Shown here one piece after another: positions 27,278 to 40,361 of a DNA stretch of 64,000 nt. The DNA is taken from positions 372,001 to 436,000 of the forward strand of contig JADLCB010000003.1 of assembly GCA_020847375.1 (NCBI GenBank), written 5' to 3'. A program made the translations under genes and the position numbers. The notes below the pieces were generated by a model, which saw nothing but the letters and a program-made list of their open reading frames with translations, was not told the DNA's origin and did no database searches. The stretch is from Phycisphaerales bacterium (GTDB lineage Bacteria > Planctomycetota > Phycisphaerae > Tepidisphaerales > Tepidisphaeraceae). Every line of letters begins with the position of its first letter. Position 1 is the stretch's first letter.

Positions 27278-28264
27278 TCAATCCTGTGGGGCAACATCAG
27301 GACGATACAACCGGCCATCAAAGGCTTTGAGATACTCCGTCCAGTTACCTGAAGCGCTGGCGTTATCGTCGCGACAATAATGCAGGGACATCATCATCTT
27401 GGCGTCAAGATTTTCGATCATGTGGACGGCGATGGCTTCGGGCGTGCTGGGATTGCGGGCCGAACCGAAGTCGAGGTTGGTCTGCCCATGATGCGACAGG
27501 ATAATGTGCTGGAGGACATCGATCAGCTCGCGAGGGATCGGTTCGCCCAGCAGGGTTGCGGCTTGGGTAGCTTTTTCCTCGAGCCAGATCGCCCCTTTGA
27601 CGACATGGCCAACCAGCCGCCCGCCGTCGGAATAGTCAAAGGCGCAGTCGTAGCGCAGCTCCCAGGTCTTGGCCAGGTCGTGCAGAAAAATACCAGCCAG
27701 CACGAGATCACGATTCAGTTTGGGATAGAAGGGGACAACCGCTTCAGCCACGCGCATGGCGCTGAGCGTATGTTCGAGCAAGCCGCCGATGTAGGCGTGA
27801 TGGAAACTCATGGCGGCGGGGCTGCGCCGGAAGTTGTCCATCAGTTGCTGGTCATCAAGGTACGCCTGCAGGAGCGCGGCCAGATGGCGGTTTTGCACGG
27901 ACTGACAGAGTTCGATGACCTGCGCCATCATTTCATCGATGTTGCAGGTTGTGTGCGGGATCAGATCAGCCGTATCGAAACTGCCGGCGGGGGCAGCCCA
28001 AAGCTGGTCGATGATGAGCTGAAGATTGTTCTGATAATTTTCAATGCGTCCGCGCAGCTTGATAAAACCCGGATCGGGAAGGGCATCGAACATTTCGCGC
28101 GTGGCGTTCCAGATGCGGGCGGTGATCTGGGTGGTGCGGTCAGCCACGAAGGCTTTGATGTAAAACTTGCCGGTGGTGGTGGAGGCAAGCTGAGCCTGGG
28201 TGATGACGAAAACATCCTCGACAATATCCCCGGCGCGGGCGTCTTTGAGATAGGTTTTCCGCAT
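27278..28264 (-). CDS. YhaM-type 3'-5' exoribonuclease (OB-fold plus HD domain)
   Basis: 328-aa nuclease. N-terminal OB-fold (about 1-110, KTYLKDARAGDIVEDVFVITQAQ, nucleic-acid binding) followed by an HD phosphohydrolase domain with the metal ligands: HHAYIGGLLEHTLSAM, the HD pair in FLHDLAKTWE, and ILSHHGQ. In Bacillus, YhaM degrades short RNAs from the 3' end and can act on DNA. ATG follows directly on the conserved N-terminus. It is divergent from the phage-like cassette, with about 290 bases between. Confidence 0.92.
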   Translation of the reverse strand: MRKTYLKDARAGDIVEDVFVITQAQLASTTTGKFYIKAFVADRTTQITARIWNATREMFDALPDPGFIKLRGRIENYQNNLQLIIDQLWAAPAGSFDTADLIPHTTCNIDEMMAQVIELCQSVQNRHLAALLQAYLDDQQLMDNFRRSPAAMSFHHAYIGGLLEHTLSAMRVAEAVVPFYPKLNRDLVLAGIFLHDLAKTWELRYDCAFDYSDGGRLVGHVVKGAIWLEEKATQAATLLGEPIPRELIDVLQHIILSHHGQTNLDFGSARNPSTPEAIAVHMIENLDAKMMMSLHYCRDDNASASGNWTEYLKAFDGRLYRPDVAPQD

Positions 28265-28558: not shown

Positions 28559-30310
28559 ATGAAGACCATTATGAACATACAGGAAATCAACGCCATCGCG
28601 CCGCAGACATTTTTAGCGCAGATCCAACGGTTGGTGCACCAATGCCAGCCGCACTATCGGCGCTTGTGGGATTATTACCGTAATCCACTGCGCCTGCGGT
28701 CGGGTTCGCGGCGGGCGGAGAATGATCGGCCGTATCGCCAGGGACAGGAATGGGGATTGCCCGCCCGTATCACCGGCGCAGCGGACAACGGTTTTGGCAC
28801 GGATGAATTAAGCAGCGATGGCCCGGAGCATTTGCGCAAGGAAGTCGTGATTGAAAACGATATTGGCTGGCGGGTGGACACAATGGTTGACTACCTGTTC
28901 GGCAAGGCGATCAACATTGATTCAACGGCAGCGGATAAAAATCAGGCTCAACTGCTTACGCGGGTGCTGCGCGAGATTTTCACAGCCAACGGCGGGATTC
29001 AGTTTTTTCAGCAACTGGCGCTGATCGGCAGTGTTTATGGGTTTGTCGATGTGCTGGTGAAATTCGTTCCGGCAGCAGCTCAGCCGGCGGATATTGCAGC
29101 ATCGAAAACATCAAATGAAGAAAGTACGAATAATATCAGTCCTTCCGAGTGCTTTCACGAGAATGGCTTGAGTTCCGGGAGCACTTGTCATGTGGGGCCT
29201 GCGCCGATGGCGGCGCCCGCCTGTCCTGTCACGCCGTCGCTGGATGAACCACCAGCCGATCGATCAACGCACGATTGTGCCCGCGATGCCCTGGTCAGCA
29301 GTTCAGAAATGGACTGGCTGCAGGGTATTGCCCGAATGATCCGTCTGGAAATCGTCGAGCCGGCGCGGGCCCTGCCCCTCCTGGATGACGCGGACATGCG
29401 TCAGGTCAGGTTGTATGCCCAGGTTTATGATCGGCCGGGCGAAGATGAACCGCAGCAACGAGGGGAGATAACGCCGCCGGTGGCGCTTCAGCGGCGCGGA
29501 TTGTGGCGGCGATTGCAGCGGACAACGGCGATGTGGTTGACGACGATGACCAGCAGCCGGCCGAGGCAAGCGGCGCAGCAGGTGGTCGATGTTTTAACAG
29601 CACAACATTGGGGGCGGTTCGTCGATGGGCAGTTGCAAAGCGGAGGCAACAATCGGCTGGGCCGGATTCCGCTGGTGCATATTCAAAATCTGGCCATGCC
29701 GTTTGAATATAGCGGCGCCGGCGATGTCGAGGGGTTGATTCCGTTGCAGGATGAGTTGAATACGCGCCTGTGCGACCGCGCCAACCGGATCACATTGCAA
29801 TGCTTTCGCATGTATCTGGGCAAGGGGATTGAGGATTTTACCAGCCAGACGATTGCGCCGGGGCGGATGTGGAAGACGGACAATCCCGAAGCGGAGATTA
29901 TCACCTTCGGTGGTGATGATGCCGTGCCCAGTGAAGAAGCGCATATCAACGATGTGCGTGAAGCGATGGATAAATCATCAGGCGTCAGCCCCATTGCCGC
30001 CGGCGCTATTAAAGGGCGGATCGGGCGTTTGACCAGCGCTGCAGCGCTGCGAATTACGCTGTTGTCGTTGCTGGCCAAGAACGATCGCAAGCGAACCGCC
30101 TACGGGCGCGCCATCGAGCAGATGTGTGAGCTGGCGCTGCAGTGGCTGGATGTGATGAAGGTGTTGGCGACACGTCCGGATGAGCGTGGGGTGAATATCA
30201 ACTGGCCCAGTCCATTGCCGGAGAATGTGTTGGAGAAATTGCAGGAAGCCAGGGCGAAAGTGCGGCTGGGGATTGATCGGCAGGTGGTGCTGCGTGAGCT
30301 GGGGTATTGA
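28559..30310 (+). CDS. phage-type portal protein (SPP1 gp6-like)
   Basis: 583-aa protein matching the SPP1-gp6-like portal family, the dodecameric ring through which phage DNA enters the head. Recognised from VIENDIGWRVDTMVDYLFGKAI, PLQDELNTRLCDRANRITLQCFRMYLGKG, and the C-terminal SGVSPIAAGAIKGRIGRLTSAAALRITLLSLLAKNDRK stretch. Residues about 171-250 are a low-complexity insert rich in Pro, Ala, Ser and Cys, unusual for a portal. Start ATG 28559 (GTG 28556 and ATG 28571 are alternatives). The frame is open throughout. First gene of a four-gene head cassette. Confidence 0.82.
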   Translation: MKTIMNIQEINAIAPQTFLAQIQRLVHQCQPHYRRLWDYYRNPLRLRSGSRRAENDRPYRQGQEWGLPARITGAADNGFGTDELSSDGPEHLRKEVVIENDIGWRVDTMVDYLFGKAINIDSTAADKNQAQLLTRVLREIFTANGGIQFFQQLALIGSVYGFVDVLVKFVPAAAQPADIAASKTSNEESTNNISPSECFHENGLSSGSTCHVGPAPMAAPACPVTPSLDEPPADRSTHDCARDALVSSSEMDWLQGIARMIRLEIVEPARALPLLDDADMRQVRLYAQVYDRPGEDEPQQRGEITPPVALQRRGLWRRLQRTTAMWLTTMTSSRPRQAAQQVVDVLTAQHWGRFVDGQLQSGGNNRLGRIPLVHIQNLAMPFEYSGAGDVEGLIPLQDELNTRLCDRANRITLQCFRMYLGKGIEDFTSQTIAPGRMWKTDNPEAEIITFGGDDAVPSEEAHINDVREAMDKSSGVSPIAAGAIKGRIGRLTSAAALRITLLSLLAKNDRKRTAYGRAIEQMCELALQWLDVMKVLATRPDERGVNINWPSPLPENVLEKLQEARAKVRLGIDRQVVLRELGY

Positions 30311-30370
30311 ACAGGTCGTTCGTGAATGGGTGGCAGCGGAAAAAAGGTTTATCAAGAAAGGAGCAGAGTC

Positions 30371-30565
30371 ATGGTGAATGGTTCTTCTACAGATGTAGTG
30401 GAGGGTGTCCATATTGTCGATACGCCGCCACTGGCGCAGCGGCCGGTTGATCGGGGTCAACCGGAGCGGCGCCGGGAGCTGGAGCAGATGGCTGGGGAAT
30501 TGGCGCGGCGGTACAGCCGACAGCTCATGCAGAAATACCTGCGCGTGCGGCGAATGCTGCAGTAA
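30371..30565 (+). CDS. 64-aa charged helical protein between portal and capsid
   Basis: Short gene with an excellent Shine-Dalgarno (AAAGGAG, 7-8 bases before ATG). The second half (PERRRELEQMAGELARRYSRQLMQ) is a highly charged, probably helical stretch. Its position between portal and major capsid genes fits a small head-assembly or scaffolding peptide, but its length is too small for a protease-scaffold and no family is recognised. A role in capsid assembly is inferred from position only. Confidence 0.65.
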   Translation: MVNGSSTDVVEGVHIVDTPPLAQRPVDRGQPERRRELEQMAGELARRYSRQLMQKYLRVRRMLQ

Positions 30566-30673
30566 CCGCAGAGGGCAGCGGGCAACCGCAGGGGGCAATA
30601 AACGCCAGTTCATGTCAGTGGGTCGTTTTTAGGATTTGCGAGTTTTTTATTTCATTTTTTGAAGGAGTTGGCC

Positions 30674-31831
30674 ATGTCTTTTACAGGAAAAGCAACGTAT
30701 ACAGCCGGATCAACCTTGCCGGAGATCGCCGAAGATGTCAGCGATCTGGTGGCGATCAGTTCGCCTTACGAGACGCCATTGCTCGATGCCCTGGGGGATG
30801 GTTCGCGGGTGGCGCGATCGACGGTGCATGAGTGGTTGGAAGATGAGCTGTTACCGGACAGCGACGCGATTGACGAGGGTTCCTTTTCACCCGATGGTTT
30901 GGACGCGACAACGTTTGGCGTGGCGCACGCAGCGCGGTTCGTGGTGGGGGATATCATTGCTGCGGCCGGCAGTGGTGAGCGGATGCTGGTGACAGACGTG
31001 GATCTGTCCAACGGAGCGATCAGCGTTGTGCGCAGTTATGGTGGTACGTCGCGTGTGGCGTTGATCGATGGGAGTGTGCTGAACATCTTCGGCAATGCGG
31101 CGCTGGAAGGGGCCGATGCCGCAGCGCCACGCTTTACGTCGCGCTGGCGCAAGACCAACTATACGCAGATCTTTTCTGCCAGCGTGGAAGTGAGCGGATC
31201 GGAGCTGGCGGTGCGGCAAATCGCGGTGGCGGATGAGTTGGAATATCAGAAGCATCTGCGGCTGCGGGAATTGCTGCGCAGCCTGGAGAGCACAGTCATC
31301 AATGGCGTGGCCCCGGCCAGTTATCCTGAAGGATCCGCCAGTGTGCGACGATCGATGCGCGGGATTCGCAGTTATCTGAGCAGCAATGTGTTCAAACCCG
31401 GGGTCAATGGATTTCCCAGCGACACCACACTGACCGAGGCCCAGCTTAATTTGGCGCTGCGAACGATCTGGCAGAACAGCTCGGCGCGGGTGGATCTGAT
31501 CGTGGTCGGCGGCAAGCAGAAGCGGTCGATCAACGGGTTTGTCGCGTCGAACCGTCGTTTCAGCAGCCAGAATGAAAATTACAAGGATCTGCTGAGCACG
31601 TACGAAAGTGATTACGGGGTTTGCCGGATTGTCCTGGCGCGGGCGGTTCCAGCCGGCACGGTGTTGCTGCTGGACAGCGCGCGAATCGAGGTATTGCCGC
31701 TGGCGGGTCGTCATTTTCATTACAAGGCCCTGGGGCGAAGTGGTGATCGGGAGTCGGGGCAACTGGTGGGGGAATATACGCTGGAGCTGCGCAACGAAAA
31801 CGCGCATGGCGTGATCGAAGGTCTGGCGTAA
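30674..31831 (+). CDS. major capsid protein, SU10/DUF5309 type
   Basis: 385-aa protein of the SU10-like/DUF5309 major capsid family (HK97-like fold expected). Characteristic N-terminal segment EIAEDVSDLVAISSPYETPLLDALG, the central YTQIFSASVEVSGSE stretch and the C-terminal GRHFHYKALGRSGDRESGQLVGEYTLELRNE. Strong Shine-Dalgarno GAAGGAG. There is no sign of a fused protease or a cleaved N-terminal delta domain. The gene is intact and its composition is similar to neighbouring host genes, suggesting long residence. Third gene of the cassette. Confidence 0.85.
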   Translation: MSFTGKATYTAGSTLPEIAEDVSDLVAISSPYETPLLDALGDGSRVARSTVHEWLEDELLPDSDAIDEGSFSPDGLDATTFGVAHAARFVVGDIIAAAGSGERMLVTDVDLSNGAISVVRSYGGTSRVALIDGSVLNIFGNAALEGADAAAPRFTSRWRKTNYTQIFSASVEVSGSELAVRQIAVADELEYQKHLRLRELLRSLESTVINGVAPASYPEGSASVRRSMRGIRSYLSSNVFKPGVNGFPSDTTLTEAQLNLALRTIWQNSSARVDLIVVGGKQKRSINGFVASNRRFSSQNENYKDLLSTYESDYGVCRIVLARAVPAGTVLLLDSARIEVLPLAGRHFHYKALGRSGDRESGQLVGEYTLELRNENAHGVIEGLA

Positions 31832-31987
31832 AGCCCGATGCGATGGGGGTTGTGTTGATGGCGCGGGGGTGATGTGGTCAGGCGGGTGCGGCGCTGGGTG
31901 AGTTGTTCCAGCGTCGTACCTGCCGGCTGGTTGCGCACGTCAGGCGAAATTATTTTGTCGGGGTTTCGGAGAAGATCAGGAGGCGTT

Positions 31988-32641
31988 ATGACTTTTTGCA
32001 GTGATTGTGATTTATTGGTGTGGGAAACGGATTTACTTGCTGATGCCGCATTTATCAGCCAGACACTGATCAGCGGTACGGCGGATTTGTCGGATACGAC
32101 GTTGACGATTGCATCGGGAAATCTGCTGAATAGTCATGTGGCAGCGGATCAGGTGGTGGTGCTGCGTGGATCGATCAGCGGTTGCTTTCCGATTGTGTCG
32201 GTGGATTCGGCGACGAAGCTCACGATCAGCATTGTGTATGAAGGATGGTGGGATAGTGGCCAGGGACGAACGGCGAGCCGGGTGGGCAGTGCGGTGGGAT
32301 TGAATTATGCGATACGCACGTTTTATCCGCAGCGGCGTCTGGTGGCGGATCTGTTGCGTCGGTCGGTTGGGATTCATTCATCCGATGCGGAAATAGTGCC
32401 CAGCCAGATTGTCAACCCGCAGGCGTTGCAGCGGGCCAATGCCCTGGGGACATTGCATATGATCTACAGCGCCCTGGCTGGGGCGGCGGATGACCCGGAG
32501 CTGCTGCAGGAGCGGGCGGATCGCTATCAAAAAATGTATCGACGGGAGCTGGAGGGGTGCGCCATCGAGCTGGATACGAATAATGACGGGCGCGTGGATG
32601 CGGTGCGGCGTCCATCGGTATTGTGTTTGCGACGGGGGTAG
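31988..32641 (+). CDS. putative head-tail connector or head-completion protein
   Basis: 217-aa protein with a perfect Shine-Dalgarno (AGGAGG). It has a beta-rich N-terminal half (TLISGTADLSDTTLTIASGN, VVVLRGSISGCFPIVSVDSATKLTIS) and a C-terminal helical part (ALQRANALGTLHMIYSALAG, LLQERADRYQKMYRREL) of the kind seen in small phage connector proteins. It also has CSDCD near the N-terminus. Position after the capsid gene fits a head-completion role, but this is inference; no exact family is named. It ends 42 bases before the argH start with no room for a further gene. Confidence 0.6.
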   Translation: MTFCSDCDLLVWETDLLADAAFISQTLISGTADLSDTTLTIASGNLLNSHVAADQVVVLRGSISGCFPIVSVDSATKLTISIVYEGWWDSGQGRTASRVGSAVGLNYAIRTFYPQRRLVADLLRRSVGIHSSDAEIVPSQIVNPQALQRANALGTLHMIYSALAGAADDPELLQERADRYQKMYRRELEGCAIELDTNNDGRVDAVRRPSVLCLRRG

Positions 32642-32683: not shown

Positions 32684-34099
32684 ATGACGAGTCCCAATAA
32701 ATCATGGCAGGCACGGATCAGCGAAGCGACCGACGCCATCGCCCAGCGTTTTGTTGAATCAATCAGTTACGACCGGCGAATGTACAAACAGGACATTGCC
32801 GGTTCGATCGCGCATGCGAATATGCTGGCGCACGTTGGGTTGATCAACCAGGCCGAGCGCAGCGCGATTGAAAAGGGTCTGCGCGAAATTGAACGGGAGA
32901 TCGAATCCGGTCAGTTCGTGTTTGATGAAAGTCTGGAAGATATTCACATGGTGATCGAAGCGGCGTTGACGCAGCGGATCGGCGAACCGGGGCGCAAGCT
33001 GCACACAGGGCGCAGCCGCAATGACCAGGTGGCGACGGATTTGATGCTGTGGATTTGCGACAGCGCCAAGGAGATCATCAGCCAGATCGATCATCTGCTC
33101 AAGGCGTATGTGAGTCTGGCCAGGCGCAGCAGTGAAATTGTCATGCCCTCCTACACCCATCTGCAGCGGGCGCAGCCGATTATCGCCGGGGCCGAAGCGC
33201 TGGCGTGGGCGCAGATGTTCAGCGGCGATCAGGATCGATTGGCGCATATTGCCCGTGGTGCATTCAATGACCAGCCAGAATTGCCGCTGGGCAGCGGGGC
33301 GATTGCCGGCAGTTCATTGCCGATCGATCCGCAGCAGACGGCGGCGGCATTTGGACTGTTTGCACCGGCCAGCAGTATCGAGCGTACGGCCAGCCGGGAT
33401 CAGGCGGTCGATTTTGTATTTGCCCTGGCGATGGTGGCGCAACATCTGTCGCGCTGGGCGGAGCAGTGGATCATTTACATGTCCAGCGAGTTTGGATTTA
33501 TCCGGATTGCGGATCGGTATACGACGGGCAGTTCGATGATGCCGCAGAAACGTAACCCGGACATGCTGGAGCTGATGCGCGGGCGATGCGGAAATGTGTA
33601 CGGCGATTTGTTTGGTTTGATGACAATCCTCAAGGGGTTGCCGATTGGTTACAACCGTGATCTGCAGGAGGATAAACGCCTTGTTTTCCGGGCGTATGAC
33701 ACGGTCAGCCAGTGCCTGACGATGGCAGCGGCGATTGTGGATTGTGCTCATTTTGATCAGCAGCGCATCGAACCGACGCTGGAGCGCGGGTTTCTCGATG
33801 CGACTTCGCTGGCGGAATATCTGGTGACGCAGGGCGTCGCGTTCCGTACGGCCCATCATATTGTCGGCACCTTGGTGGCGCGCTGCGAGAAGGAGGGCAA
33901 GGTCGGGCTGGATCAGCTCGACCTGGACGCGATCAATGAGGTGATGGCCGGTCACGAAACCAAAGTGCGGATCACGCAGGAGGTTTATACCTGCCTTGGC
34001 GCGGCCAACGTGGCACGACGTTATCGCAGCGCGGGCGCCGGCGGCGGTGAACCCTTTCTACAGCAACTCCAGACGTGGGAAAAACGACTGGGTTTGTAG
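32684..34099 (+). CDS. argH: argininosuccinate lyase
   Basis: Last step of arginine synthesis: splits argininosuccinate into arginine and fumarate. 471 aa. Signature TTGSSMMPQKRNPD with the flexible catalytic Ser loop, plus HTGRSRNDQVATDL and SYTHLQRAQP. Upstream ATG 32672 and GTG 32645 are in frame but give atypical N-termini; ATG 32684 matches the family start (TSPNKSWQARISEATDAI). The gene directly follows the phage-like cassette on the same strand with a 42-base gap, so it may be co-transcribed or read from an internal promoter. Confidence 0.97.
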   Translation: MTSPNKSWQARISEATDAIAQRFVESISYDRRMYKQDIAGSIAHANMLAHVGLINQAERSAIEKGLREIEREIESGQFVFDESLEDIHMVIEAALTQRIGEPGRKLHTGRSRNDQVATDLMLWICDSAKEIISQIDHLLKAYVSLARRSSEIVMPSYTHLQRAQPIIAGAEALAWAQMFSGDQDRLAHIARGAFNDQPELPLGSGAIAGSSLPIDPQQTAAAFGLFAPASSIERTASRDQAVDFVFALAMVAQHLSRWAEQWIIYMSSEFGFIRIADRYTTGSSMMPQKRNPDMLELMRGRCGNVYGDLFGLMTILKGLPIGYNRDLQEDKRLVFRAYDTVSQCLTMAAAIVDCAHFDQQRIEPTLERGFLDATSLAEYLVTQGVAFRTAHHIVGTLVARCEKEGKVGLDQLDLDAINEVMAGHETKVRITQEVYTCLGAANVARRYRSAGAGGGEPFLQQLQTWEKRLGL

Positions 34100-40287: not shown

Positions 40288-40361
40288 AGGTGGTGGCCGG
40301 ATTCGAACCGGCGAATAACGGATTTGCAATCCGTCCCCTTAAACCACTTGGGTACACCACC
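40288..40361 (-). tRNA. tRNA-Cys (GCA)
   Basis: Read on the minus strand: acceptor GGTGGTG with CACCACC, anticodon stem ACGGA/TCCGT around loop TTGCAAA (anticodon GCA), T arm GCCGG-TTCGAAT-CCGGC, discriminator T, as expected for tRNA-Cys. CCA is not encoded. Confidence 0.95.

Follow-up and report, generated by a model that had tools for sequence, protein, structure and literature searches.

The 64,000-nucleotide stretch of DNA analysed here (the window, G000:C3:372001-436000, from a 3.02-Mb genome, G000, in 31 contigs) carries a four-gene cassette that is probably the head part of a DNA-packaging system of the Phycisphaerae which derives from a phage and has been domesticated and passed on vertically, a viriform that resembles gene transfer agents (GTAs) and whose genes are spread over more than one locus. 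On the reading of its genes, the system is a strong candidate for a new GTA. We refer to it as GTA-like, and not as a GTA, on the strength of three features of the GTA definition that its sequences display; the formation of particles and the transfer of DNA are activities that we infer.

Table 1. Coordinates of the cassette genes, the genes on either side and the large terminase. Positions are those of the window, except for the terminase, which lies on another contig.
Feature	Position	Strand	Basis
Portal gene	28559 (or 28571)..30310	+	PF05133 (SPP1_portal) E=1.3e-16; phrog_64 E=2.3e-21
Predicted shortened scaffold homologue, 64 aa	30371..30565	+	HMM of same-family proteins, E=1.8e-14; scaffold function putative
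SU10-type major capsid protein (MCP), 385 aa	30674..31831	+	PF17236 SU10_MCP E=1.1e-80
Connector-like gene (putative head-tail adaptor), 217 aa	31988..32641	+	Position conserved among relatives
YhaM-like HD protein	27278-28264	-	
argH	about 32684-34099	+	
Large terminase, own genome	G000:C2:68559-69977		Family profile E=5e-170; 524-aa open frame, no stop

The four ORFs of the cassette (Table 1) are intact, as a first-pass annotation of the window had described them, and the homologies that it proposed for them are borne out. The profile built for the portal matches the window's copy at E=2.5e-225 and finds a counterpart in 52 of 101 genomes, and that for the MCP matches solved heads of the SU10 type (9ny2 at 3.6e-34 and 7z45 at 8e-13). 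Shine-Dalgarno-like sites are good at the 64-aa ORF, the MCP and the fourth gene and weak at the portal, so that the annotation's good ribosome-binding sites hold for three of the four genes; the best start of the fourth gene is the ATG at 31988, which follows AGGAGG, rather than the GTG at 31874. Neither the 64-aa protein nor the fourth protein has a match in Pfam. An HMM made from ten sequences of the window's family, with the window's own excluded, ranks the 64-aa ORF first among the 705 ORFs of the window, and an HMM made from longer proteins at the scaffold position also ranks it first, at an E value of only 0.044. A small ORF with a YLRLRR-like motif at its C-terminus lies at the scaffold position in 10 of the 11 other mapped loci of the family (it was not found in G010), and the scaffold-position proteins of other families, which reach about 220 aa, have the same C-terminal ending. 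These sequence comparisons identify the 64-aa protein as a scaffold homologue of reduced length, and its position suggests a scaffold function. The connector-like protein, for which the AF2 model is confident (pLDDT 86.6), weakly matches viral structural proteins, one of them annotated as a head-to-tail adaptor, and a search of the PDB with its fold returned no significant match. Its gene is present at the same position in 45 of the 52 MCP-positive genomes; within the window's family it carries one in-frame stop in G010 (L035:10792-11442) and is missing from the loci of G008, G009 and G012. Throughout the mapped loci the order and strand of portal, scaffold-position gene, MCP and connector recur amid varied neighbourhoods; a chance set of ORFs would not share its genes and their order with dozens of genomes, as the cassette does.

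The genes that flank the cassette are cellular and encode Fur, a GATase, the YhaM-like HD protein, ArgH, YidC, a metallophosphatase and a HisH-like protein, which confirms the YhaM nuclease gene and argH that had been named on its two sides. The reported absence of an attachment repeat or of a nearby tRNA also stands: no direct repeats were found to bracket the cassette, and the nearest tRNA, a tRNA-Cys at 40288, is 7.6 kb distant. There is no integrase among the flanking genes in the window, and the system's terminase has no homologue within these 64 kb. With housekeeping genes at its flanks, no attachment repeats and its terminase elsewhere, the cassette does not have the layout of a functional prophage, in which packaging, tail, lysis and integration genes would be contiguous. 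Six genomes of the window's family (G000, G007, G010, G012, G020 and G023) have the cassette upstream of argH, with both on one strand, and this recurrence in five genomes besides our own, which the annotation had suggested looking for, favours its notion of a domesticated capsid conserved in the lineage over that of a decaying prophage. In the mapped loci of other families argH is not beside the cassette, which most relatives carry elsewhere; argH is thus outside the system, and no consistent cargo gene adjoins the cassette among the mapped loci.

The motor of the system is encoded at a second locus. The first-pass annotation had called the cassette one without packaging genes and had proposed a search for terminase homologues elsewhere in the genome; its statement holds for the locus only, since an intact large terminase gene is present on another contig of the same genome (Table 1) and in nearly all of the MCP-positive relatives. 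PF03237 (Terminase_6N) alone missed the protein in our genome. The family was recognised by aligning six weak PF03237 hits from relatives, which turned out to form a single family of full-length proteins that carry Walker A, Walker B and nuclease motifs, and by building a profile from them. Against PHROGs the terminase of our genome hits phrog_2, a terminase family, at 2.6e-18; terminases of solved structure are matched by the profile in both the nuclease domain (6.5e-7) and the ATPase domain (1e-5). At E<1e-90 the terminase is found in 58 of the 101 genomes, and 50 of these belong to the 52 that are MCP-positive (Fisher p = 9e-18 for the co-occurrence); G034 and G070 have the MCP and no terminase, eight genomes have the terminase and no MCP, and no match in the sampled Planctomycetota outside the class reached the same threshold. 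The terminase and the cassette occupy separate loci in most relatives, from 10 kb to about 1 Mb apart, and in our genome they lie on different contigs (C3 and C2), at least about 165 kb from each other. In G033, G042 and G017 the terminase precedes the portal (in G017 by about 4 kb), and in G008 and G024 it follows the MCP closely. Neither an integrase nor a tail set was recognised in the maps of these five, as read by eye and by clustering, and a contiguous run of terminase, tail and integrase genes in a close relative, which the annotation had named as evidence against a domesticated capsid, was not seen in the maps read. Phage contigs have the terminase and the MCP close together, for which reason a contiguous ancestor is the simplest reading.

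Two further observations concern the terminase family. G030, G039 and G048, of family f6, keep the terminase and have no matching MCP or portal, so that the motor is either alone or accompanied by partners that we do not recognise. Outside the class, many genomes of another Planctomycetota family, f42 (for example G145, G229, G243, G312 and G347), carry one weaker relative of the terminase, with E values of about 1e-28 to 1e-35 and similarity in the nuclease half only, which is possibly part of a second inherited, phage-derived system.

The neighbourhood of the motor was surveyed at 20 terminase loci. The recurring neighbours are genes for a sigma-70 region 4-like HTH protein (14 loci), an ABC-type ATPase (17 loci) and a GNAT protein (15 loci), and a ParB-like gene recurs as well; a divergent gene that combines XRE and Peptidase_S24 domains (LexA-like) is present at eight of the loci and a putative small terminase (phrog_2538, 4e-4) at seven. 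In our own genome the HTH, ATPase and GNAT genes directly precede the terminase, no small terminase was recognised beside it, and the gap between the GNAT gene and the terminase is too short for one.

The capsid gene is widespread in the class and rarely duplicated. Among the good genomes in our sample of the Phycisphaerae, 132 of 277, which represent 101 of 211 genera, have SU10_MCP, nearly always in a single copy, and so do 52 of the set of 101 genomes (our own included), again nearly always once; the MCP relatives with named sources, 56-61% identical, come from MAGs of the Phycisphaeraceae and Phycisphaerales. Broken copies occur. The portal of G054, a genome in a single contig, is split into two parts that lie 67 kb apart (G054:C1:3226106-3226612 and 3293822-3294685) by a large insertion or rearrangement, and is whole in the sister genomes. 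Both portal and MCP are in pieces in G083, about 7 kb separates the N-terminal part of the MCP from its main part at G026:C106:25570-33573, and in-frame stops interrupt the MCP of G518 and G586 and the terminase of G072. Some of these broken copies may be assembly errors. Together with the lack of an MCP in about half of the class, they indicate that the system is dispensable and has been lost repeatedly.

Where the system is kept, its inheritance follows that of the host for the most part. The MCP tree separates the chromosomal copies from most phages (support 87/91) and needs 14 changes of family label, for which the minimum is 11 and the mean after shuffling 36, and the terminase tree needs 12, which is its minimum. 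The Mantel correlations of distances with rpoB, after dereplication, are 0.66 for the terminase, 0.43 for the portal and 0.30 for the MCP (p=0.014), so that agreement with the host is good for the motor and poorer for the MCP, of which some horizontal exchange is possible. Among the components themselves the corresponding pairwise-distance correlations are 0.63 for MCP and portal, 0.36 for MCP and terminase and 0.63 for portal and terminase. The dN/dS ratios that the first-pass annotation had recommended are mostly 0.06-0.3 in pairs of relatives from related genera; by the NG86 method, for close pairs, they are 0.06-0.17 for the MCP, 0.11-0.23 for the portal (with one pair at 0.37), 0.09-0.29 for the terminase and 0.03-0.07 for rpoB. 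None of these pairs includes the window's genome, to which no genome in the analysis is closely related, and as a substitute we scored its retention of columns that are invariant in all other sequences: 64 of 65 for the MCP, 44 of 44 for the portal and 53 of 53 for the terminase.

Three contigs listed in IMG/VR are nested within the chromosomal clade of the MCP tree. L142 and L143 are phage-like, with MCPs that are 61% and 55% identical to that of the window and with the rest of the cassette absent, and a capsid exchange between phages and the Phycisphaerae system is possible. An AU test did not reject a tree in which the MCPs of family f10 group together without the phage L142 (p=0.144), so it is not proven that a phage took its MCP from f10 hosts. 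The third, L173 (IMGVR_UViG_3300031673_016560), is listed as viral but looks chromosomal, with the complete gene order of the chromosomal type and identities that reach 83%; it is probably a fragment of a Phycisphaerae chromosome.

Other families of the class have additional genes downstream of the connector, among them c5, c6, c9, c11 and c8. The last of these, which encodes a protein of about 600 aa, is present in 27 of the 101 genomes and in none of the window's family. Profile searches of PHROGs and the PDB returned no match to c8, and its structure model is poor (pLDDT 32); its relatives in G045, G087 and G097 lie 7-9 kb downstream of a different terminase and on the same strand, and c8 is on that account probably a phage late protein. 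A different terminase family (L055, L056, L059 and L063, from G097, G071, G082 and G077) is conserved at 47-59% identity across families f14 and f3 of the class and is perhaps another conserved phage-derived element. In the window's family most cassettes are followed by c4, often by d4, and then by d6. The c4 protein has one short hydrophobic segment and a predicted coiled region, and a homologue of it matches phrog_89 (Rz-like spanin) at 6.5e-4, while d4 is a short protein with a lipoprotein-like signal; in another family a different pair of membrane-coil protein and lipoprotein (c13 and c12) takes the place of c4 and d4. This resemblance of the pairs to spanins would be consistent with a role in lysis. 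The c4 gene, present in 30 of the 101 genomes, was not found in ours, and d4 and d6 are absent from the window's locus. No tail was recognised in the window's family, where the system is reduced to head and motor, with a spanin-like pair as well in several genomes.

If the system functions as its homologies suggest, the scaffold would nucleate a procapsid on the portal, and the motor would dock on the portal, cut host DNA and fill the head by a headful mechanism. Selective packaging of the system's own genes is improbable, as no small terminase was recognised beside the motor of our genome, and a single head could hardly take up two unlinked loci. In related families, c8, the pairs of inner-membrane coiled-coil protein and lipoprotein, and the LexA-like repressor beside the motor would be likely parts for delivery, release and control. 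It is conceivable, though we think it rather improbable, that in the window's family a GTA has been pared back to heads that are filled with DNA and have no tail of their own, composed of portal, mini-scaffold and capsid and served by a motor for which no small terminase is recognised, and that it is selected for the packaging of host DNA itself and not for tail-mediated delivery.

The same reduction might be read as decay, with an ancestral prophage having lost its tail, lysis and integration genes and left a residue that has no present function. The absence of the spanin-like c4 and of the late gene c8 from our genome, the broken copies in several relatives and the loss of the connector from some genomes of the same family would all suit such a remnant, to which we give a small share of the probability; it fits less well because it leaves unexplained why two unlinked loci are retained or lost together and why dN/dS is low, and the near-complete retention of invariant columns in our own copies and the agreement of the trees with host families over many genera also speak against it. 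Capsid-forming PICIs (cf-PICIs) are satellites that encode capsids, package themselves in their own heads and borrow tails from a helper phage, and a set of head and packaging genes in which no tail gene is recognised recalls them. We consider a satellite of this kind very unlikely, as one packaged unit could hardly carry both a head and a motor whose genes are on separate contigs in our genome and, in complete genomes, are separated by as much as about 1 Mb, and as there are no recognised integrase or attachment repeats and the trees are congruent with the host. Equally unlikely is a protein compartment, the "encapsulating" alternative of the first reading, in which the capsid would have been kept as an encapsulin-like shell for a protein cargo. 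The loss of recognisable late genes from the window's family, and of the connector from some of its genomes, would be in keeping with a shell; the known role of portal and terminase is the packaging of DNA, and a compartment needs neither, yet both are intact and co-occur with the capsid, and the cassette has no consistent cargo gene at its side. The GTA-like alternative of that reading is accordingly the one that we favour. No report of a planctomycete GTA was found in the set of PMC papers searched. If particles form, there would be a GTA lineage in the Planctomycetota, with an SU10-type capsid and in about half of a bacterial class, and its genomes, which are reduced to different degrees (some have clusters with additional late genes, others head and motor only), would provide a test of what keeps such systems.

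GTAs have been defined by their Caudoviricete-derived proteins, by full endogenisation, often in multiple loci, by an inheritance that is mostly vertical and congruent with that of the host, by a genome of their own that cannot be fully packaged, by particles that hold mostly random host DNA and by the arrival of this DNA in other cells (Kogay et al. 2022, PMC9662315), and a layout in multiple loci is typical of them (PMC11841831; PMC9662315). In the present system the homologies of the portal, the SU10-type MCP and the terminase point to Caudoviricete-derived proteins, the cassette on C3 and the terminase on C2 are endogenised in separate loci, and the inheritance is mostly vertical, strongly so for the terminase and less so for the MCP. 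To our knowledge, the SU10-type capsid family is not represented in any characterised GTA; among the control genomes, Caulobacter gave no match to PF17236. From SU10-type and related tailed phages, including the IMG/VR contigs L145 and L148-L153, whose MCP is homologous (35-42% identity) and is preceded by a distantly related terminase at a few kb, the system differs in that head and motor are split, whereas terminase, portal position and MCP are together in the phages, and in having no recognised replication or integration genes. With the capsid-forming PICIs it shares head and packaging genes without tail genes, and it departs from them in its unlinked loci, the lack of a recognised integrase and its host-congruent trees. 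RcGTA, BaGTA and the BhGTA of Brachyspira differ from it in capsid type (PF17236 here) and host class, and by the tail that is not recognised in the window's family; like them, the system consists of phage-derived head and packaging genes that are distributed over multiple loci, endogenised, inherited mostly vertically and maintained under purifying selection.
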